Assembly: GCA_002011075.2 (NCBI GenBank) | Contig: MTMA02000006.1 | Span: forward strand, 155,842-219,841 | Origin: Candidatus Scotarchaeum otlingeri | Lineage (GTDB): Archaea; Thermoproteota; Nitrososphaeria; Geothermarchaeales; JDFR-13 | Length of the DNA: 64,000 bases | Reading direction: 5' to 3' | In this document: piece after piece, positions 5,116 to 17,045 of the stretch | Layout: every line of letters starts with the position of its first letter | Position numbering within the stretch: the stretch's first letter is position 1 | The notes under the pieces: model-generated | The model's database searches: none | Told to the model about the DNA's origin: nothing | The model's input: only the letters and a program-made list of their open reading frames with translations | Position numbers and translations under genes: made by a program

Positions 5116-6069
5116 CTATTCTCTGTGTTCCCATACTCTTCTCCGAAGCCAAAGCATAAATATCAATGTTAAAATTCCAATAATTGTCATGCCTCTAGTA
5201 TCGTCTACGCGGGTCGGATCGAGTTCTTGAATAGGCGCTAAGATAATGAAGAATAATAAGGCTCCGAAACTTAGTGCCCATGTGTGTCTGGCTTCCCACT
5301 CCTTAGAGTTGTAATATATCGCTAACCCTAATATTAGGAGTATTGCTGTGCCTATGGAGATAGTTGCTGGAGGAGGTAAATAATTAGGCAGCCCGAAGAA
5401 ACTGAAGTATAAGGCGAATATGGTGAAGAAGCCAAACACGATATTTTTCCGGGTGGACGCCTTAAATCTGGCTTTACCCAATATACCGGCTCTAGGCACC
5501 TTTTTCGCCGTTAAAACTATCAATATACCTATCAGTGTAAAGACTAGATAAGGAAGGGGCTCGGGGAGATAGGGATTGAGGAAAGCAAATATAACGAGTC
5601 CATTTAGGGAATAGGCGGCAAAAAGTAATTTCAATTTCTTACCTGAAATCCAGCTTATATTTCTCTTATCTATATGAATCAATTCAACAATAGCTATGGG
5701 GATAGCTATACTTACAATAGCATGATAAAATATAAGAGCATTGGTCCAAACCCAGTTCACTCCGTATACTCTTCCATAGCCTCTAAGAACACCTAAGTCT
5801 ATCCAGTAAGGATCGAAGAAGCTTTTTACAAATAATCCTTCCTCAGCTATGGCATATGCAACCCCCAAATATAAAACCACTAAAAAATCTTTCTTCCATC
5901 TTACTTTAGCTTCTCTAATAAGTATAGCGCCGCCCCCATATAGAACACTCAGGATAATGAATGCAATAGGATTAAAGAATTCCATGGGGGGTGCAGAGCC
6001 CGATAACATCTCTGCTAATATAGGCGATAGAAAGAACAGTTTTAATGCAGGGTCTCCCCTGATATTCAT
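5116..6069 (-). CDS. Polytopic membrane protein of unknown function
   Basis: Multiple hydrophobic segments. Confidence 0.65.
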   Translation of the reverse strand: MNIRGDPALKLFFLSPILAEMLSGSAPPMEFFNPIAFIILSVLYGGGAILIREAKVRWKKDFLVVLYLGVAYAIAEEGLFVKSFFDPYWIDLGVLRGYGRVYGVNWVWTNALIFYHAIVSIAIPIAIVELIHIDKRNISWISGKKLKLLFAAYSLNGLVIFAFLNPYLPEPLPYLVFTLIGILIVLTAKKVPRAGILGKARFKASTRKNIVFGFFTIFALYFSFFGLPNYLPPPATISIGTAILLILGLAIYYNSKEWEARHTWALSFGALLFFIILAPIQELDPTRVDDTRGMTIIGILTLIFMLWLRRRVWEHRE

Positions 6070-6224
6070 AATAAGAATAATTATCGATTTCGATAGATAA
6101 GAAGATAGGTAGATATAAGATGTGTATTCTAGAGAATATTCCTTAAATCCGCGGAGAGAAACCGTTTCAAAACCGTTTCACAAAACCCTTATCTAATGTT
6201 TCACCCCTTATAGAAAAGCTTGAG

Positions 6225-6590
6225 GTGAAAAAGATGAATAAAACCTTAATCATAGTGGCAAGCGGGCTGATAACAGCACTACTAATCGGATGGATGATAC
6301 CAGGGATAATAGCAAACCCCTACAACGCTATGGCTATGCGTGGAATAAATAATGGGATGATGACCAGCGGCATGAACAACGGCATGATGCATGGAGGAAT
6401 GAACGGGATGCACATGGCTATGAACAACGGATATACCGACTGTCCAATGCATAACCACCAAAACAGCCACATGCATCAAATGATGTACAACCAGAGCCAA
6501 ATGCATATAGAATGCCAAGAAATGATGCAGAACATGCATATGCAACACCAAAGCCACAACCAAGAGAACCACAGCTACACGGAAGGATAA
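6225..6590 (+). CDS. Secreted/membrane-anchored Met/His-rich protein (possible copper/metal binding)
   Basis: N-terminal hydrophobic signal/anchor, then dense M/H/N (MHGGMNGMHMAMNNGYTDCPMHNHQNSHMHQMM...MQNMHMQHQSHNQ). Confidence 0.65.
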   Translation: MKKMNKTLIIVASGLITALLIGWMIPGIIANPYNAMAMRGINNGMMTSGMNNGMMHGGMNGMHMAMNNGYTDCPMHNHQNSHMHQMMYNQSQMHIECQEMMQNMHMQHQSHNQENHSYTEG

Positions 6591-6712
6591 AAAAAGGAAC
6601 AGCCCCAACACCCCTCTTTTTATATAGGCAAAAATTGCATAAGACAACCAAAAACCAGCAGATTATTGCAACGAAAACTCATATGACAAGCCGCTAATCA
6701 ACTATAATTAGA

Positions 6713-7366
6713 ATGACAAAGAAAGCCCTCCTCATAATAGACATGACCAAAGATTTCCTCCTCAAAGAATACAACCCCAGCCTAGCCCTAGAAAGAGCCC
6801 AGCAACTAATACCCCGAATAAGACAACTCCAAGAAGCCTTCCTCAAAAAAGGATACCCAGTAATCTACGCATCAGATAGACACCTACCCACAGACCACGA
6901 ACTCAAAAAATGGGGACCACACTCAATGAAAGGAACAGAAGGATCAGAGATAGTAGACGGCCTCCTCAAAAAAGGAATATACACCCTCCAAAGAAACTGG
7001 ACCCCAAAAGATATAGAGAACATCCCCCCAAACCAACTCCTACTAGAAATAGAAAAAGGAACCTACAGCGCCTTCACCGACAACAACGGAGAACCCACAG
7101 CCCTCCAACCCCTACTAAAAAAACTAGGATTCAAACCAGGAGACGAACTATACATAACAGGACTACACACAAACTGCTGCGACAAACACACCATAGCAGA
7201 CGCATGGTTCAGAGGATACAAAACCATAATAATAACAGACTGCGTAGACGCATTCGACAACACAGACGGAACCCTCGGAATGGGACACAACGAAGCACTA
7301 AAATACCAAAAATACTGGTACAACACCCAAACAAAAACAAGCCAAGAAACCATAAACCAACTATAA
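6713..7366 (+). CDS. Isochorismatase-family cysteine hydrolase (nicotinamidase-like)
   Basis: ALLIIDMTKDFL, GLHTNCCDKHTIADAWFRGYKTIIITDCVDAF. Confidence 0.88.
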   Translation: MTKKALLIIDMTKDFLLKEYNPSLALERAQQLIPRIRQLQEAFLKKGYPVIYASDRHLPTDHELKKWGPHSMKGTEGSEIVDGLLKKGIYTLQRNWTPKDIENIPPNQLLLEIEKGTYSAFTDNNGEPTALQPLLKKLGFKPGDELYITGLHTNCCDKHTIADAWFRGYKTIIITDCVDAFDNTDGTLGMGHNEALKYQKYWYNTQTKTSQETINQL

Positions 7367-7563
7367 ACCAACCCACCCAATTTTTATATAAAAACCACCA
7401 AAACAAACACCAAAAACCAAAGAACAAACCAAATAATACACATACAATAACAAAAAAGCGATGAAAACTAACAGAAAAAAACCACTCTACATACAAACCA
7501 AACACAGATAAAGAACAAATAAAAAAACGCCCCCAACCAAAAAAACACCACCAAAAAAGAAAA

Positions 7564-7572
7564 ATATAAAAA
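7564..7572 (+). promoter_or_regulatory. Probable TATA box of the tRNA-Tyr gene
   Basis: atataaaaa about 35 nt upstream of the mature tRNA 5' end. Confidence 0.45.
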
Positions 7573-7604
7573 CCAACCCACAAAACAAATAATAGAGAAA
7601 CACC

Positions 7605-7732
7605 CCCCGGGTAGCTCAACCTGGAAGAGCGGCTGGCTGTAGCGTGCCCAGTTGGTGGGCTACTTATTTGCCCGGCCGCTGCTCGTACATGCAGGCACCA
7701 GCAGGTTGTGGGTTCAAATCCCACCCCGGGGA
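7605..7732 (+). tRNA. tRNA-Tyr(GTA) with ~50-nt intron near 37/38; CCA encoded (7733-7735)
   Basis: Acceptor CCCCGGG/CCCGGGG (C1-G72, A73), D arm GCTC..GAGC, anticodon stem GCTGG..CCAGC, loop CT-GTA-G, T arm GTGGG TTCAAAT CCCAC. Confidence 0.85.
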
Positions 7733-7738
7733 CCATTA
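7713..7738 (+). repeat. Direct repeat copy 1 (attL-like) in the 3' part of tRNA-Tyr: ttcaaatcccaccccggggaccatta
   Basis: Perfect 26-bp match to 11587-11612. Confidence 0.95.
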
Positions 7739-7752
7739 TATCTTTTTAGTGT

Positions 7753-8964
7753 ATGTCGGTGTTTTTAGTGGGTAGTTTTAGGTCTTTAGATGTGGATGAT
7801 GCGGTTGTTTATGTTGTTAAGATAGGGTCTTCTAAAGGGTATGGTTGTATTAAGTTATATCGTTCTATTTGGGAGTCATTTGGTGTTTATGGGGGTAAGG
7901 GTATTTTTAAGTTGTTATTAGATGTTGAGAGTAATCTGCTTGAAGTGTTTACTTATTATGGAGTGAGGAAGTTTGTGGTTTCAGGTGATTTGAAGGTTGG
8001 CGCTACATGTGTAATCAAGAATATTAGTAGTTATAGTTTAGAAGATTTTATAAGGGATTTTAATCAGAAGTCAGCGAATAAATATGGTGTTGTTCTTGAA
8101 TTGGTGGAGGATAAGTTGTTGCTTAGAGTATTGTCTACTGATGATGTTTATAGGGTTATTAATTATGAGTTGAGGGTTGCTAAAGGAGGGGACTCGGAGC
8201 TTATATTGACTATAGAGGGCGATAATCCTATTGACCTGGTTTTTATTTATGATAAATTTGGGAGAAATCTTGTTAAAAGAATTATTGGTAAAGGTAAGAA
8301 TAGACATAGGTATGATGTTGTAAAGTTTGTTTCTTCTGGTTCGGAGTTAGGGGTTGTCTATAGAAAGGGGAGGTATGATGTAACATCTTTCAATAGATCT
8401 ATTTCTCGATCACAGTATATTGAATTTGTTTTAATGGAGGACCCTGCCGGGATAGAGTTTAAAGAAGTCTCAGGGTCGTGGTATAACATATCCTTGTCGG
8501 AGAAGGTTTGGATGACGGTGAAAAACTATTATACATATATTTATTCTTATGGTCCGAGGAAAAGACCACTAGAAAAGGAGAAAATAGGGATTATTATTGC
8601 AAATCGTTTTTTAAATGAGAGATACAGAAACATCAGATTTATTAATGAGATGGATAGAGTGGATGGCGGACCTGATCTATATTGCATAGTGGACGACGAG
8701 AATCTATATGTTATTGAGGTTAAGTTCACCGCTAGATCAGATCGGTATGTGATGAGGTTAAAAGCTAATAAGGCTAAGAAACAGATTGAAGCATTTATCT
8801 ATAGGACATATAAAGAGAAGATAAAGGATATCATGAGTTATAATGCTATTGAGAATTTATATTATGGGGTCTTAATAGTGGGAGTAAATCTACTCTCTAG
8901 GAAAATTGATGACTATTTAAAAGGTAAAATATTTTATCAGATATGGAGATGTAGATATGACTGA
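7753..8964 (+). CDS. Cassette 1 protein A: unknown N-terminal region + PD-(D/E)xK-like nuclease motif
   Basis: GGPDLYCIVDDENLYVIEVKF...KKQIEAF near C-terminus (D-x(n)-ExK plus downstream Q); paralogous to 12601-13815. Confidence 0.7.
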   Translation: MSVFLVGSFRSLDVDDAVVYVVKIGSSKGYGCIKLYRSIWESFGVYGGKGIFKLLLDVESNLLEVFTYYGVRKFVVSGDLKVGATCVIKNISSYSLEDFIRDFNQKSANKYGVVLELVEDKLLLRVLSTDDVYRVINYELRVAKGGDSELILTIEGDNPIDLVFIYDKFGRNLVKRIIGKGKNRHRYDVVKFVSSGSELGVVYRKGRYDVTSFNRSISRSQYIEFVLMEDPAGIEFKEVSGSWYNISLSEKVWMTVKNYYTYIYSYGPRKRPLEKEKIGIIIANRFLNERYRNIRFINEMDRVDGGPDLYCIVDDENLYVIEVKFTARSDRYVMRLKANKAKKQIEAFIYRTYKEKIKDIMSYNAIENLYYGVLIVGVNLLSRKIDDYLKGKIFYQIWRCRYD

Positions 8965-10000
8965 TATGGATTTATTATTAGATATTTATGATATTTGGAT
9001 GGATTTGTTGGATTTTATAGAGAATGAATTGATGTTTTCGCCTAGAATTAGGTTTCGGCTTAACATAACTAATGACGCCTATTTATGGGTGGCTGACGCT
9101 AGTTCATATATTAGCCATATATATGACTATCTAGGTAGATTAGTATGTGACCCAGACGGATGCTTTATTGAAGGAATATTCTACAATATTATCGACCTTA
9201 TTGAGGAACTATATCCTAAGAAGTCAGCTAAATATTATGATGAAATGTTGTCGGTTAATTGGTCCGATCAAAACACTATAAAACAGTTCTCAGACATATT
9301 CCCTAAATTCTTTAAGGATTACTACAATTCTTTGAAGGAAATCACAGATAAAAAAAGCCGTGATTTAGAACACAATGTTTTCAAGCCAGAATTCATTACT
9401 CGTAGTGAAGGGCTTTTTGGAGTTCGAATCAAACTTTGTGAAGAACACTTGCCTACTAATCTGATTGAGAAGTTATCTGTAGCTATCGAAATATTAAAAG
9501 AGATATATTTAGGGTATAACCAGATCGATATGGATAAATGGAGAAAAGATGTACGTGATAATTATTTCATATATAAAAAGAACGCTGAGTACGATAAGTT
9601 AAGAATGCTATTGAATTTCTTGATAAAGATATCGACAGAGCATACATTAGATAAGATACTCAATATAAGTATTGACGCGCGACACGTAGGTAAATATCTA
9701 TTATCTATTAACTCAGTTGGTGAAGATGGTGAAATAAGGGTGGTCACCGATATATATATTGATAAGATAGATATCTCTAAACACAATATTCACATAAATG
9801 TAATATCTAAGAATAAGGGTTTAATGAATAAATTAATGGATATGTTAAACAAGGCTCTCGAGCCAAAGCTTATTATGAAACCCGGTAATGATTCCGTCTC
9901 AACTCTGATAAGTCACAGTGGTTCAGGCGACTTTGGTAAGATCGAGACGTTTATAGCAAATGTAATTCATAAGATAAAAGAAGTTACGCAAGAATCATAA
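8957..10000 (+). CDS. Cassette 1 protein B: unknown
   Basis: Overlaps gene A by 8 nt; weak similarity to 11619-12626 around CDPDGCFIEGIFYNIIDLIEELY / ENPDGIMIMRDMEDSIIDIVNEIY. Confidence 0.65.
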   Translation: MTDMDLLLDIYDIWMDLLDFIENELMFSPRIRFRLNITNDAYLWVADASSYISHIYDYLGRLVCDPDGCFIEGIFYNIIDLIEELYPKKSAKYYDEMLSVNWSDQNTIKQFSDIFPKFFKDYYNSLKEITDKKSRDLEHNVFKPEFITRSEGLFGVRIKLCEEHLPTNLIEKLSVAIEILKEIYLGYNQIDMDKWRKDVRDNYFIYKKNAEYDKLRMLLNFLIKISTEHTLDKILNISIDARHVGKYLLSINSVGEDGEIRVVTDIYIDKIDISKHNIHINVISKNKGLMNKLMDMLNKALEPKLIMKPGNDSVSTLISHSGSGDFGKIETFIANVIHKIKEVTQES

Positions 10001-10025
10001 TATATATCTTAACAACTCACTGTGA

Positions 10026-11585
10026 ATGAACATGTTACTAGAATATTATTTTATCCCGATAGTGCCTCCAGAATGTCTGGATGGATTTAACATACTAAAA
10101 AATAGATTTGTAGACGCTATTTTCCAGTATTACCGTATATTCGATAAGCCTGTTTTCCGGTTACCTAGCGATGTCAAGTGGCTTCTCTCATCAGTAATGC
10201 CGGATTACCTATTAGCCACTCAAAATATCCATATCCAGTTTGCCTCTTGGGCTAAAGATAAAGGTATCAATAAGGTTATTGTATGGGACCTACCTACTTA
10301 TCTAGATAAAATAGAGGAGGCAGAAGAGAATATTCCACGATGTTTAGAATATATAGATTGGTTTGAAAATAAGGGTTTCGATGTTATTCCATTAATAAAA
10401 GGAGCCACCCCAGATCAGATACGGTGGTTCTGTAATGAAGTAGCTGAACGAGGTTATGAAGATGTAGCTTTTCATGCTAGTGAATTCCTATCAAGTAGAT
10501 TACGTCCCTATCCATACTATCCAGATAAATATATCTCGGCTAAAGATTATCTTCTTCTTCTACTAAAAGAAGTAGTTAATTATCCTTTCAAACGCATATT
10601 GGTATTGGGCGGCGCTAGCCCAAGACATATGGATTTACTAATGGATTTGTCGGATAAGATTGTTTTGGCCGGATTAAGTTGGTATATAGATGCAAGAAGA
10701 TTTAGAGTATACACCGATAAGAGAAAGATAAAATATTTAGGTAAATCATACTTTGAATGCGACTGTCCAATATGTAAATATGTGTCTGCAAAACAGAGAA
10801 GAACCCCCTACTACATTGCACTTCATAATCTCTATTATAATTGGCTATATATAGAGGGCGATGATAAGCATAGATTTGAGACATACGACCTAATTGTTGA
10901 TGCTAACGAAATTCTAATTGTCACATCAAATCTATATATAGGCCATCCACAGAGTTTATGGCAGGTATTTTTTAATAAAATGAAACGAGTCAAACCCACA
11001 TATATAATTCTAATAGGTAATACACTTTATCTAGATAATCCCTCCGACAAAAATAGACAAAAGTGGAGCGAGTTAATTCGTATTCTTTCAGAGCTATATG
11101 AAGAACATGGAACTATATCGATCTTCATGAAAGGCCGCTCTGAGACATACCCAATAGACATATTAACTAACGACTCTTTCCTTTATAGGGAGGCCAAAGA
11201 CCCATTAATAAATAAATTTACCGAAGAACCAGGTCTTCTAACGCTAATCAAATTCTATAGCGGAGCAAAGCAAGAGTTAACTGTAAAGAAGAAAACTCTA
11301 AAAGAAGAATTTACCATAAAAATTGCTAACGAAAAAATAATAGATCATCTTCCTCCTGAGGAAGCTATTAAGTTGGTTAGAAATGATAAAAGCCATAAAG
11401 GATACGACTGGATATTTACAAATTTACTTAACTATCCATATGTAGACTACAAAGAGAAAGTGGCTATACCCGGTGAATGGACCCTTTTTTCACCTAGTTT
11501 AACGGAACCTAGACCGGGTTACATAGTAGTAGATAAAAACGGATCAGTAAAGGTCAAAGAGATAAGGTATCACGAATATACTTGA
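10026..11585 (+). CDS. Cassette 1 protein C: divergent TGT/DpdA-like protein
   Basis: Zn-site-like FECDCPICK...HNLYY (CxCx2C...H), VIPLIKGATPDQIRWFCNEVAERGYEDVAFH (cf. TGT VVQG...), RILVLGGASPRHM; close paralogue at 13802-15370. Confidence 0.65.
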   Translation: MNMLLEYYFIPIVPPECLDGFNILKNRFVDAIFQYYRIFDKPVFRLPSDVKWLLSSVMPDYLLATQNIHIQFASWAKDKGINKVIVWDLPTYLDKIEEAEENIPRCLEYIDWFENKGFDVIPLIKGATPDQIRWFCNEVAERGYEDVAFHASEFLSSRLRPYPYYPDKYISAKDYLLLLLKEVVNYPFKRILVLGGASPRHMDLLMDLSDKIVLAGLSWYIDARRFRVYTDKRKIKYLGKSYFECDCPICKYVSAKQRRTPYYIALHNLYYNWLYIEGDDKHRFETYDLIVDANEILIVTSNLYIGHPQSLWQVFFNKMKRVKPTYIILIGNTLYLDNPSDKNRQKWSELIRILSELYEEHGTISIFMKGRSETYPIDILTNDSFLYREAKDPLINKFTEEPGLLTLIKFYSGAKQELTVKKKTLKEEFTIKIANEKIIDHLPPEEAIKLVRNDKSHKGYDWIFTNLLNYPYVDYKEKVAIPGEWTLFSPSLTEPRPGYIVVDKNGSVKVKEIRYHEYT

Positions 11586-11586
11586 A

Positions 11587-11612
11587 TTCAAATCCCACCC
11601 CGGGGACCATTA
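11587..11612 (+). repeat. Direct repeat copy 2 (attR-like), tRNA-Tyr 3' end fragment
   Basis: ttcaaatcccaccccggggaccatta, perfect match to 7713-7738. Confidence 0.95.
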
Positions 11613-11618
11613 AAAGGT

Positions 11619-12626
11619 TTATGTGTTTTGTTCTATTGTTTTTATTATTTGTTGGACTTGGTTTATGGCGTTATATAGCGAGGAGTGCTGTTCTTCGATA
11701 CTAATTAGTGGCTTTCTTTCCTTATACCTAATTATTTTACTGAGACTGTTTTCTATTTTGGTTCGGTGTTTTTTCCTAAGTTCTATGTATCCAGTTATTT
11801 TATATTTTATTGGTTGTTCTGTTTCTTCGATTTCATGTATTTCTATTTCTAATGTGCCTATCTTCCTATTTTCTAGTCTTATGAATATGTTTCTTCCTCC
11901 CTCTATTGGCCAGTTATCTATTTCTATATTTGTGGGTATTAGTGTGTGTAGTTCATTGATTATCTTTCTTATGGTGTATAAGCTTGTCTTTATAAATTCT
12001 ATATCCCCTTTTTCTTGGATGTCAAATTCTTGCTGTGCATCATCAACATTATAAATTTCTTTATAAATTTCTCTTAATATATCCATGCCTTGCATAAATA
12101 GAGAGACTTTATCTTTTATCGCCTTTTTCTTTACATTATATCTTAATTCGATGTATGAATATCCTGTTTCATCTATTATATCCCTTATCTCTACTTTGTG
12201 CTTTGTGCTTATCCTATTCGCCGCCTCTGCTCTTTTATCTATGAATTCAAAGGCTTTGGGATATTTTTTTCTAAGTTTTTCAATCATCTCTGGTTTTGAC
12301 CAACTTTCTTCATTAAATTCCAGGTTATCGTATAAGTAGACTCCGTATATTTCATTTACAATGTCTATAATGGAATCCTCCATATCTCTCATAATCATTA
12401 TACCATCTGGGTTTTCTTCAGCCCACCTGAAGAACATTTTATGTGGCTCGGCAAGCGCATAATTAATTGATTTTGCTATATTCCATGAATATATATTTTC
12501 AGCTAATGACGCTCCTATTCTTAAGTCGTATGATAAATATGGATATGTTTCTATTCTTTCTATTATCATGTTTAGAAAATCTAAACTATTATATAATGAT
12601 TTATTCCAACTCATCAATATCACCAT
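11619..12626 (-). CDS. Cassette 2 protein B': unknown
   Basis: Last gene of convergent operon, overlaps A' by 26 nt; positional and weak sequence match to B. Confidence 0.6.
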   Translation of the reverse strand: MVILMSWNKSLYNSLDFLNMIIERIETYPYLSYDLRIGASLAENIYSWNIAKSINYALAEPHKMFFRWAEENPDGIMIMRDMEDSIIDIVNEIYGVYLYDNLEFNEESWSKPEMIEKLRKKYPKAFEFIDKRAEAANRISTKHKVEIRDIIDETGYSYIELRYNVKKKAIKDKVSLFMQGMDILREIYKEIYNVDDAQQEFDIQEKGDIEFIKTSLYTIRKIINELHTLIPTNIEIDNWPIEGGRNIFIRLENRKIGTLEIEIHEIEETEQPIKYKITGYIELRKKHRTKIENSLSKIIRYKERKPLISIEEQHSSLYNAINQVQQIIKTIEQNT

Positions 12627-13815
12627 CTAGTTTCTCCATTTTAAAGTATAAAAAACCATACTTATCCTTCTTTAAATTAATAGTTACTATTATAAAACCA
12701 TAATTCTTTATTATTATCTTCAGTTGATCCATGATAGAAATAATTTTATTGACCTGCCTTTGCACTTCTTTGAAAGCTTCAGAATATTTTTTATTAACAG
12801 CTTCTCTATTTGATACAAATTTAACTTCGAATACATCAACAAGTTTCTCTGCTTTTACAAAGACATCAGGCCTAATATTTTTTTTCATTAGCAGTTTAAA
12901 TCTTGATTTTAAGTATGGGTCTCTAATCACATTTCCCATAATCTTTTGTGATAAGAAATGTAACGCAATCTTTTTACCAATTTCTTCTCTAACAAATCTT
13001 CCTCTTACTATACCATGTTTAAGCATGTCATAACTTATATTCATTAATCTGCGTAAAACAGAATAAGCATCCCCATCAGTTATCTCAAACTTATAGATAA
13101 CTATATCGTCTTTTCCTACTACTTCATAAGTAATCGCTTTATCTTTAATCTTATAGTCATATAATCTTTTTAGCGAAGATAGAGGAATAAATGTTGTCTT
13201 CTTCTTTTTTGGGTTTTTTCCGTGTTGGTATGTTATGGCTATTCCGTGTTTGCTTGCTGTTAGTTTGGTGACTGTCTCCGGCATGGCTCTTTTTCTTGAT
13301 GTTCTTTTTGATAGTATCTTGATTTGGCTTTTTTGGTTTTTAATCTGGTATTTTAGTTTTATTGTTTTCCTTGTTTCGGCTGGATATTCGGCTATTATTA
13401 TGGCTGCTCCCCCGTGCTCTCTCCCATACCTCCATTTCTTTGTTGCTATGGTCTCTCCGCCGCTGAATCTTAGTATCAGTTTATCATTTATTATTTCAAG
13501 TTTAATTCCATATTTGCTCTTTGCATCTTGGTTGAAGTCTTTTATAAAGGCTTCTTGGCTATAGGGCTCTATCTTAATGTGGTGTTTTCCTAGTTTGAGC
13601 CATTTATAGCATAATACTACTTGGCTCTTGGGGCTGTAGCGCCAGTGGATCTGGTGTTCTGTATCGTTGGAGATGGTTATTCGATATATCTCCTCCCCTG
13701 TCTTTTCATATAGTTCCTTGAATGGTGTGCTGGGTAGGTATATGGTGGGAGGCTGCCCTACGGCCGTCGTCTCCAGCTCTACATTTGTTTCCTCTCTGTC
13801 TTTATATTGCCCCAT
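12601..13815 (-). CDS. Cassette 2 protein A': unknown N-terminal region + PD-(D/E)xK-like nuclease motif
   Basis: RPDVFVKAEKLVDVFEVKF...VQRQVNKI; shares FI(R/K)DFNQ..(N/S)KYG..LE...DKL.LR with A. Confidence 0.7.
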   Translation of the reverse strand: MGQYKDREETNVELETTAVGQPPTIYLPSTPFKELYEKTGEEIYRITISNDTEHQIHWRYSPKSQVVLCYKWLKLGKHHIKIEPYSQEAFIKDFNQDAKSKYGIKLEIINDKLILRFSGGETIATKKWRYGREHGGAAIIIAEYPAETRKTIKLKYQIKNQKSQIKILSKRTSRKRAMPETVTKLTASKHGIAITYQHGKNPKKKKTTFIPLSSLKRLYDYKIKDKAITYEVVGKDDIVIYKFEITDGDAYSVLRRLMNISYDMLKHGIVRGRFVREEIGKKIALHFLSQKIMGNVIRDPYLKSRFKLLMKKNIRPDVFVKAEKLVDVFEVKFVSNREAVNKKYSEAFKEVQRQVNKIISIMDQLKIIIKNYGFIIVTINLKKDKYGFLYFKMEKLDGDIDELE

Positions 13816-15370
13816 CTATATCCACACCTTTAATTATTTTTACCTCGCCTCTCCTCGTTAGGTATAGGGCTCCTTCCTCCGGTTTGGTGTATGTATTCCA
13901 TGTTCTCCTCCATATTCCGGGTGTAGCAACCATCTTCTCGGTGTCTATATGGGGTTGGTTTATTGAGGTTGTTATGAACCATTCGAGCGCTCTAGATTCT
14001 CTTTCCCTTGCTAGCTCCTCCAGGGTGCGTTCTACATCCTTTTCTTCTATTGGACGGGTCTCTAGAGTTAGGGTGAGCGGTTTACTATCCCGGTATTTCT
14101 TTATTGTTAGTTTTGATTTGGCTGTTGCGTATAACCTGATAAGCTTCATTAGGGCCTCGTCATATATTGTTTCTCTAAGGTTATCCATCAAAGGATCGAT
14201 TTCACCTGGAAATAGGAATTTATATCTCCTAGTGATGTTTATAGGCCGTTCTTCTCCATAGCTCTTCATTAATATGGTTATGGTTCCATTCAACCGAAGC
14301 TCCATCAACCTCTCCATGAATTTTATCCATTCCCCCTGTCCCTTGCCAAAGCCATCTATATATAGCGTGTTCCCCATCAGGATGAGGTATCTGGGCTTCA
14401 GCCTCTTGGCTATATGGATTAATCCTCTCCATATACTGTCTCTATGCCCCACATATAATCCTGCCGCTATTAATATGTCATGGCTATAGTCGGCGATTAA
14501 ATCATAGAGTCTCACTTCTACATCAACAGGATAGTCAATGTCATAATTGATTAGCCAGTTGCTGAAGTAGAGGTTGTGCTGAGCTATAGACGAGGAACTT
14601 CTCCGGGTTAACGGGGGCTTCACGCTACAGTATGGACAGGTGCATTCATAGAATCGGTTCTTGACATTTATATTCTTCTTCTCTGTATATAGAAGTTTCT
14701 CCCCTGCATCTATATACCATGTATAACCGCTGAGGCATATCCTGTCATCTAGATCCATTAGTCTATAAGCATAATTGGGGCTTGCCGCTCCAACTAATAA
14801 TAATTGCCTAAAGTCGTACTCCAATATATTTTTGATATAGCTAACCATCAAGTCATACGCACTCATGAATGGATCAGAGAGCTCTGGATATGGACGTAAC
14901 TCTGTATATAAATATTCTGATATGTGGAAAGCCGCTATATCGAAACCCAAAGCCCGGATTCCGCCTAGGGATATCCTTATGTGGTCTTCATATGCTCCCT
15001 TTATCAGAGGTATAACTTTAAATCCATGGTCTATGAAGTACTCTAATCGGTCGAGAGAAGTATATGTGTTGCCGAGGGATTCTTCGGGTTTGTTAAGGTA
15101 TGTGGGCATATCCCAAACCAAGATGTGGGTTATACCGAGTTCTTCAGCTAGCTTCCTAAACTTGATATGGGTGTCTTTTTCACGTAGAAGGTCGTCGGGC
15201 ATGATACTTGATAGTATCCATTTAACCTTCTTAGATAGTTTTGGCTTTAACGACCTAGGCCAGATGATTGTATAATATGGTATTATTGCATACTCAAATT
15301 CATGGGACAACTCGTTGAATATATCTATAGATTCGGGTGATACGATAGGTATATATCTAGTTAACTTCAA
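13802..15370 (-). CDS. Cassette 2 protein C': divergent TGT/DpdA-like protein
   Basis: FYECTCPYCSVKPPLTRRSSSSIAQHNLYFSNW; VKWILSSIMPDDLL, VWDMPTYL, VIPLIKGA shared with C. Confidence 0.65.
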   Translation of the reverse strand: MKLTRYIPIVSPESIDIFNELSHEFEYAIIPYYTIIWPRSLKPKLSKKVKWILSSIMPDDLLREKDTHIKFRKLAEELGITHILVWDMPTYLNKPEESLGNTYTSLDRLEYFIDHGFKVIPLIKGAYEDHIRISLGGIRALGFDIAAFHISEYLYTELRPYPELSDPFMSAYDLMVSYIKNILEYDFRQLLLVGAASPNYAYRLMDLDDRICLSGYTWYIDAGEKLLYTEKKNINVKNRFYECTCPYCSVKPPLTRRSSSSIAQHNLYFSNWLINYDIDYPVDVEVRLYDLIADYSHDILIAAGLYVGHRDSIWRGLIHIAKRLKPRYLILMGNTLYIDGFGKGQGEWIKFMERLMELRLNGTITILMKSYGEERPINITRRYKFLFPGEIDPLMDNLRETIYDEALMKLIRLYATAKSKLTIKKYRDSKPLTLTLETRPIEEKDVERTLEELARERESRALEWFITTSINQPHIDTEKMVATPGIWRRTWNTYTKPEEGALYLTRRGEVKIIKGVDIDGAI

Positions 15371-16007
15371 ATAGTCACCATAAATAAATTTTATGCCTAA
15401 TTTTTATTAAGAATAGAGACGGCATTATTGAACCATAACACTGGAGCCTCAGACCCCTGCATAAATTTCCCATCCAGCTATACTAAATTCAATATATATT
15501 GGGGCCGATTCTAAGATTATCAGATATATAACCTACCTTCCCTTTAATTAAGCCTCGAGATTTATAAGGGTTGACGCCGAGAAAGGATATATGGCCCGCA
15601 GCTGCCTTATCAATCCAGATATAATTCTTAACAGGGTTCTCACAGACTTCACCCGGATCATCGAAATACATTATAATATTATCTCCACCTTGGCAATATA
15701 CTATATTTAAGTAGCTTCTATATGGGGGGCCAACGATTTATTTGGTCTCGTCAAACCATGTAATTTCCACTTCATTGATAAACTTTACGCTAAATATTAT
15801 GATGGTGGAGAGTAGTATAGGTATTGCGATGGAAAAATAAAACAAACATTACTTACAACTCGTGGTTGTATTTTATATTAGTGTCGCTTTATATTACTTT
15901 TCATTATTGTCATGATTATATAGAGAATTATTGGGGTTATCTCTGATTCTTAATTATTCGAAGCATAAGATAAAAAATCTATGTAAAATAAAAAGTGGTA
16001 TGAACAT

Positions 16008-17045
16008 CTATACCCATACATCTACTATAGTTTCTCCTTTGAATACCTCGATTGAGCCGTCTGGTAGCTCCAAAAGTATCTCGCTCTCGATAACCATTAT
16101 GTATTGTCCCGCGGGGGTGTCTGGCGGTAATACCACTGTGACTATAAATAGTCCAACTTCTTCTGTGGGGTTTAGGAATATTTCTTCGCCTTCGATTCCT
16201 ACTACGTTTACTCGGGTTATCTCTCCGCCTACGGCGCCTTCTCCTTCTAGTGTGATAAGTACATAGTAGTTTCTTATCATGTCTTCGAATTCCCATATCT
16301 CGGATACATGGATTAATACTGTTTTCTGGGTCTTGAAGTCTAGGTTTATCATTATGATCATGATGTTGTTGAGTATGTCGTATATGTTTATAACTAGGTT
16401 ATAGATTAGGACTAGCGTGTTGTATATGTCTATCGTAATAAAATTATATATACTTATGGTTACATCATAGATGTTGATTAGATAATTGTACACCTCTATA
16501 GTTATGAAATCATAGATCTCGACTGTAATATCGTAAATATTAAAGACATAGTTGTACACGTTATTCACGGTGTTGTAGATGTTGGTTACGGATGTATAGA
16601 TGTTATTGATTGTTACATTGATCTTGTTAATATTATTAATCACGTTAGTTACGTTAGTTATATTTACAGATACATTCTTTAGTGATAATGTAAGGTTATA
16701 TAAAGTTATAAACCAGTTATCAACAAAATTGTAGAATGCACCTCCCTTATCCAGCTTCGCCTCTATGTTATTAACTTCCCTATTAATCTCTAGAATAAGG
16801 CTATATAACGTGCTGAACCATTGTTCTGTAAAGTTATAAAATGAACCGTTTTCATCAAGTTTTTCTTCTATAGCCCTCACTTCCTCTTCAAGCCTAAGAA
16901 GATCCTCATTTATAGTCTGTGCCCTAACTACCCCCGGTAATAAGTCGCTATAAGCCATGTATGTAGTTGCCCCTGAGCCTAAGATTAAGCCTATAAGGAG
17001 ATAAGCAAGTAGTTTAGTCAAATTCATTGTCGGTCCGATATCCAT
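16008..17045 (-). CDS. Membrane-anchored/secreted protein with long heptad-like Ile/Tyr/Asn stalk and C-terminal beta-rich domain
   Basis: N-terminal hydrophobic segment; repeated NIYxxVx / xIYxxIx units (VTNIYNTVNNVYNYVFNIYDITVEIYDFITIEVYNYLINIYDVT...); C-terminal GQYIMVIESEILLELPDGSIEVF. Confidence 0.7.
   Translation of the reverse strand: MDIGPTMNLTKLLAYLLIGLILGSGATTYMAYSDLLPGVVRAQTINEDLLRLEEEVRAIEEKLDENGSFYNFTEQWFSTLYSLILEINREVNNIEAKLDKGGAFYNFVDNWFITLYNLTLSLKNVSVNITNVTNVINNINKINVTINNIYTSVTNIYNTVNNVYNYVFNIYDITVEIYDFITIEVYNYLINIYDVTISIYNFITIDIYNTLVLIYNLVINIYDILNNIMIIMINLDFKTQKTVLIHVSEIWEFEDMIRNYYVLITLEGEGAVGGEITRVNVVGIEGEEIFLNPTEEVGLFIVTVVLPPDTPAGQYIMVIESEILLELPDGSIEVFKGETIVDVWV

Follow-up and report, generated by a model that had tools for sequence, protein, structure and literature searches.

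Gene organisation of the locus

The window analysed here is a 64,000-nt stretch of the genome of the hydrothermal-vent archaeon Candidatus Scotarchaeum otlingeri (GTDB lineage Archaea; Thermoproteota; Nitrososphaeria; Geothermarchaeales; JDFR-13), comprising positions 155,842–219,841 of the forward strand of contig MTMA02000006.1 in assembly GCA_002011075.2. Its plus strand carries three uninterrupted open reading frames, A1 (7753–8964), B1 (8957–10000) and C1 (10026–11585), with an overlap of 8 nt between A1 and B1 and a gap of 25 nt between B1 and C1, as described in a preceding sequence-only reading that had proposed an operon. An intron-containing tRNA-Tyr (GTA) gene is located upstream on the same strand (7605–7735; Rfam tRNA score of 54.4 bits, isotype assigned by eye). 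The 3' end of this gene, together with the following TTA, forms the left copy (7713–7738, plus strand) of an exact 26-nt direct repeat, the right copy of which is a displaced tRNA-Tyr 3' end (11587–11612, plus strand); the 23-nt core of the repeat has an expectation of zero in shuffled sequences. The tRNA-Tyr gene is the integration site of this unit (cassette 1), which spans about 3.9 kb between the repeats and contains only A1, B1 and C1. A small Met/His-rich protein is encoded upstream of it, at 6225–6590 of the window.

A second cassette occupies positions 15370–11619 in inverted orientation, tail-to-tail with the first and with the gene order C2-A2-B2. All three genes lie on the minus strand: C2 (13802–15370) encodes a TGT-fold protein 38% identical to C1, A2 (12601–13815), an open reading frame recognised also by homology, encodes a nuclease starting with MGQYKDRE, and 6 bp separate the stop codon of the open reading frame B2 (11619–12626) from the copied tRNA-Tyr 3' end. 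A third copy resides elsewhere in the host genome, beside a tRNA-Asp gene (locus L012). A1 is homologous to A2 and A3, and B1 is homologous to B3 and was aligned with both B2 and B3. At locus L013, a remnant of a second cassette (13281–14537 and 15708–16307) is arranged tail-to-tail, as in the window, with a serine recombinase gene (PF00239) close by.

Protein C combines a TGT fold lacking the nucleophile with a phosphoesterase-like half

The profile of protein C matched the archaeosine TGT structure 1IQ8 (9e-5), and its alignment with the TgtA profile in hhalign covered the whole TGT domain with an E-value of 1.4e-13. The AlphaFold model of C (pLDDT 76) matched TGT structures, and its second half matched phosphoesterases of the Mre11/Ap4A-hydrolase type. 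The earlier assignment of C to the TGT superfamily is thus upheld, and the CxCxxC...H, HNL, PLIKG and GGASP motifs on which it was founded are all present; they are not chance occurrences, because both profiles and the fold point to TGT.

The catalytic nucleophile of TGT enzymes, Asp280 (Asp249 in archaeal numbering), is replaced by Val, Cys, Ala, Arg or Ile in the C family. At the position of the general acid/base, Asp102 (archaeal Asp95), an ungapped alignment places a Ser (ILSSIMPD), and hhalign sets the conserved Asp60 opposite. Two other elements are retained, namely Asp88 of the WDxPTY motif (10287–10289, plus strand), which is equivalent to the base-pocket Asp of TGT and invariant in the family, and a zinc site formed by C245-x-C247-x2-C250 and H267 of the HNL motif (10758–10826, plus strand). 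We read protein C as a TGT fold no longer capable of base exchange. Culexmicrobium has an intact metallophosphoesterase half (PF12850, 8e-10), and the metal ligands of this half are gone in the Geothermarchaeaceae, including the degenerate C-terminal half of C1; PHROGs returned only weak metallophosphoesterase matches. In PADLOC, members of the C family matched the TGT model PDLC00912, which we take to be that of the CBASS TGT, weakly but consistently, and gave no matches to DpdA models, whereas true TgtA showed the reverse and matched the DpdA models.

The TGT fold beside a nuclease had been read as DpdA-like base modification of DNA or RNA, supplied from a host preQ0 pool. The 11 draft Geothermarchaeaceae genomes, host included, yielded no archaeosine-pathway match for TgtA (PF01702) and no QueC (PF06508), and QueD (PF01242) was found in none of the 23 genomes searched, which include these 11. 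Weak PF06508 matches in the host family were recognised on inspection as other PP-loop enzymes (ArgG, ThiI, GuaA, TtcA, LarE and NadE). All 11 drafts agree; neither a preQ0 nor an archaeosine pathway can be detected, and the host and the ten other members of its family seem to lack archaeosine synthesis. What favours base modification coupled to a nuclease is the TGT fold itself; the missing nucleophile, the absence of DpdA model matches and the undetected preQ0 genes speak against it, and we had to abandon this explanation as highly improbable.

Proteins A and B

The PD...EVK motif noticed earlier in A1 belongs to the C-terminal domain and is encoded at 8671–8724 (plus strand), and its D...ExK residues are invariant in an alignment of five Geothermarchaeaceae A sequences and recur in other groups of A proteins, in agreement with the proposed PD-(D/E)xK active site. 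Comparison of the A profile with that of PD-type A proteins of another lineage gave a weak alignment (P 0.0014). In the AlphaFold model of A, only the N-terminal region was of good quality; the nuclease part had a pLDDT below 50, and no convincing PDB match was obtained. The prediction that A is a PD-(D/E)xK nuclease rests on motif conservation together with the weak profile match. From its ATG codon, A1 reads MSVFLVGSF, and a GTG codon at 7768 would give MGSFRSL; we propose the latter as the likely true start, as it fits the MGQ and MGE starts of homologues.

No recognised domain was found in B, and profile comparison revealed no clear relation between the groups of B proteins. A lone B-like gene at locus L014 (5622–6557) ends near a 16S rRNA gene, about 60 bp from its 3' end.

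Distribution and the shared N-terminal tail

Related records come from Geothermarchaeota/Nitrososphaeria genomes. Protein C is present in 7 of the 11 Geothermarchaeaceae genomes, host included, and a search with an extended profile found relatives in several further families of Thermoproteota. They occur in a long form, with a Cys-rich N-terminal part and an intact phosphoesterase, and in a short form consisting of the TGT domain only. The expectation that A, B and C would co-occur in other genomes was confirmed. No relatives were found in IMG/VR or in phage and plasmid collections at the sensitivities used, and on these searches a viral origin was rejected. A C-like fragment from Methanofollis at the end of a contig (L029, 4806–5645) has defence-type neighbours, among them type I restriction and CARF genes. 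An apparent 3128-aa fusion at L133 was rejected as a gene, being a run of N.

A protein starting with MG follows nearly every intact C gene (about 20 loci, C loci at contig ends being unscorable), usually 0–80 bp downstream. Its start is MGQ(Y/F/L), MGGG(S/T) or similar, and the rest of the protein is variable. None of 251 background open reading frames starts with MGQ[YFLS]; starts were taken from a mechanical caller, and the MG starts of A1 and A3 (L012) were picked among alternatives. Two exceptions were noted: a small open reading frame intervenes at L135, and no A gene is present at L137. The C homologue of the latter (5821–7674) has a glutaredoxin-like open reading frame beside it.

Wherever its type could be recognised, the MG-starting partner is of the PD-(D/E)xK type at L126–L129 and, with a variant motif, at L136, as judged by motif, and of the LAGLIDADG type at other loci (PF14528 matches down to 1e-18, further ones by homology). 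Profiles of the two types align over residues 1–13 only. At L130, the A protein is a natural hybrid: residues 1 to about 385 are related to PD-type A (about 46%), and its LAGLIDADG half is related to A of L206 and L125 (about 40–45%); on inspection, the B protein of this locus resembles B of the LAGLIDADG loci. The restriction of similarity to residues 1–13 and the existence of the hybrid single out the N-terminal tail as the part that stays constant beside C.

Insertion at tRNA genes and mobility

In three more three-gene units, as in cassette 1, copies of a tRNA 3' end lie on both sides: L142 at tRNA-Ala (52-nt repeat with one mismatch), L197, located where a contig ends, at tRNA-Leu (repeat of at least 39 nt) and L200 at tRNA-Glu (27-nt repeat, with an interrupted C reading frame). 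Only C, A and B are encoded between the repeats of these four units, and no integrase gene was found within them. Three loci adjoining tRNA 5' ends (L014, L137 and L140) were left out of the count of 3'-end arrangements. Altogether, insertions were observed at tRNA-Tyr, Ala, Leu, Glu, Thr, Asp and Gly genes, with isotypes read by eye. Many tRNA-adjacent copies have no detectable repeat; therefore, age or other routes of insertion are possible.

Comparison of related genomes points to movement. At an orthologous tRNA-Glu site in genomes G453 and G488, which represent two species, both flanks are 82–83% identical, the modules are about 70% alike and lie in opposite orientation, and flank homology restarts about 3 bp past the B stop codon. 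Loci L140 and L141/L213 belong to different families of archaea and have in common only the tRNA-Gly gene and the module (2.9 kb at 88%) between unrelated flanks, a sharing seen in metagenome-assembled genomes, where cross-bin contamination is possible. In two sister species, units that are 91% identical (L197 and L211) occupy two different tRNA-Leu genes with a common 3' end. Several cassette copies are frameshifted, and many have decayed.

These data could be explained by a homing-type element, in which A would cut tRNA loci devoid of the unit, repair would copy the cassette in, and C would aim the nuclease at tRNA genes, the main function being the element's own spread. LAGLIDADG is the classic homing fold, and the LAGLIDADG partners, the four units devoid of an integrase, the range of tRNA genes occupied, the near-identical units at two tRNA-Leu genes and the many decayed copies all agree with such a mode of life. 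However, most members with a long C (the MGQ group) are not beside tRNA genes, and the MG tail is left unexplained. Repeats of tRNA 3' ends are usual for tyrosine recombinases, and such an enzyme acting in trans could yield the repeats observed. On balance, we regard homing as the main function as somewhat unlikely, if the foremost of the competing explanations.

The neighbourhood of C brings in another alternative, that of a toxin–antitoxin-like maintenance unit, in which A would be a nuclease toxin restrained by B and/or C, and loss of the unit would kill the cell. PIN toxin genes occur beside C at L012 (10522–10875), L014/L015 (L014, 11439–11837), L016 (3013–3414), L017/L018 (L017, 13614–14021) and L206 (9171–9593), and genomes of the host family have few PF01850 matches, 1–13 each and three in the host. 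A ParE gene at L207 and a HEPN–nucleotidyltransferase pair at L028 are likewise adjacent to C, and the units are compact and present in multiple copies. Three genes, two of them large, and the tolerance of many decayed copies fit such maintenance poorly, and we consider it improbable, more so than homing. The PIN neighbours associate C with genes of the mobile or defence type, and we do not take them as proof of function.

Proposed function of the cassette

The explanation that we prefer, and to which we give about an even chance, is that A1-B1-C1 is a self-contained, mobile nuclease cassette residing at a tRNA 3' end, with C acting as the dock for the N-terminal tail of A. Having kept the base pocket and the zinc site, C would most likely serve as a docking or reader protein that recognises A by its exposed N-terminal glycine tail, a role modelled on that of Cap10 with the CD-NTase in type IV CBASS. 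Protein A would be the effector, a DNA nuclease (PD-(D/E)xK here and LAGLIDADG in other members) placed behind the N-terminal MG tail, and B would be a nuclease-specific partner, probably a regulatory, immunity or targeting subunit. We suggest that C either holds A inactive or aims it, so that upon release or activation A would cut DNA; the most likely use would be an attack on invading DNA or on competing elements.

One could further hypothesise a class of integrase-less tRNA-homing elements, in which the dead TGT recognises the tRNA gene or the tRNA and docks exchangeable nucleases by their glycine tails, the three proteins together moving the unit and fending off competitors without cellular 7-deazaguanine. 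We hold this broader scheme to be speculative and rather doubtful. On the preferred explanation, too, the cassettes would exemplify a highly compact means by which nuclease genes that bring no integrase along take up residence in tRNA genes.

Comparison with known systems

The sequence-only reading had not recognised the A-B-C combination, and it has no match among described systems: it corresponds to none of the known kinds tested, and no earlier description was found in the open-access literature searched, though one may exist beyond it. None of the three proteins has a recognised methyltransferase domain, and C has no TGT nucleophile, which sets the cassette apart from restriction–modification. 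The dpd clusters likewise have a TGT-superfamily gene beside a nuclease, but the nucleophile, preQ0 genes, other dpd genes and DpdA model matches are all missing here. Free-standing homing endonucleases share the LAGLIDADG or PD-(D/E)xK nuclease encoded beside its apparent target gene, to which the cassette adds a TGT-fold protein, a third gene and the common MG tail. Genomic islands integrated into tRNA genes likewise have the tRNA 3' end directly repeated at their borders; the cassettes differ in that they lack an integrase and, at only 2.8–3.9 kb, hold three genes. BREX-related capture systems with TGT/GNAT components (PMC12839542) likewise have a TGT homologue in a defence locus, but PglZ, BrxC-like, HerA and STAND proteins were not seen in the cassettes.

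The closest parallels concern the N-terminal tail. QatB, a protein with a flexible tail, has an essential N-terminal glycine motif, MGTS (PMC13279940); no QatA, QatC or QatD was seen at the cassette loci, and a TGT-fold protein stands in place of the QueC-like one of QatABCD. In type IV CBASS, the TGT-family protein Cap10 is reported to bind the CD-NTase, which has the motif MGGS, at its modified N-terminus (PMC11996544). Starts of A proteins such as MGGGS, MGGGT, MGSGS and MGQYS resemble both the MGGS of CBASS and the MGTS of QatB. The TGT fold of Cap10 is reported to be adapted to the N-terminus of a partner, which starts with MGGS, and the TGT fold of C may serve MG-starting proteins in a similar manner; Cap10 was compared by description rather than by sequence, and the PDLC00912 matches of C are weak. 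Unlike type IV CBASS, the cassette loci have neither a CD-NTase nor Cap9, the partner is a nuclease, and the host has no detectable QueC; moreover, C has an additional metallophosphoesterase half or a Cys-rich N-terminus. None of A, B and C matched cyclase models; the nucleotidyltransferase neighbouring C at L028 did so weakly. No Cap9-type QueC-like ligase was found in the host family, and the known route to the tail modification of CBASS is therefore closed there; the tail bound by C may be unmodified or carry a different modification. If the proposed docking is true, the occurrence of the system in genomes with no detectable 7-deazaguanine pathway makes one ask what the ligand of C would be, and the N-terminal-glycine/TGT logic of type IV CBASS would extend to a separate and widespread archaeal nuclease system.
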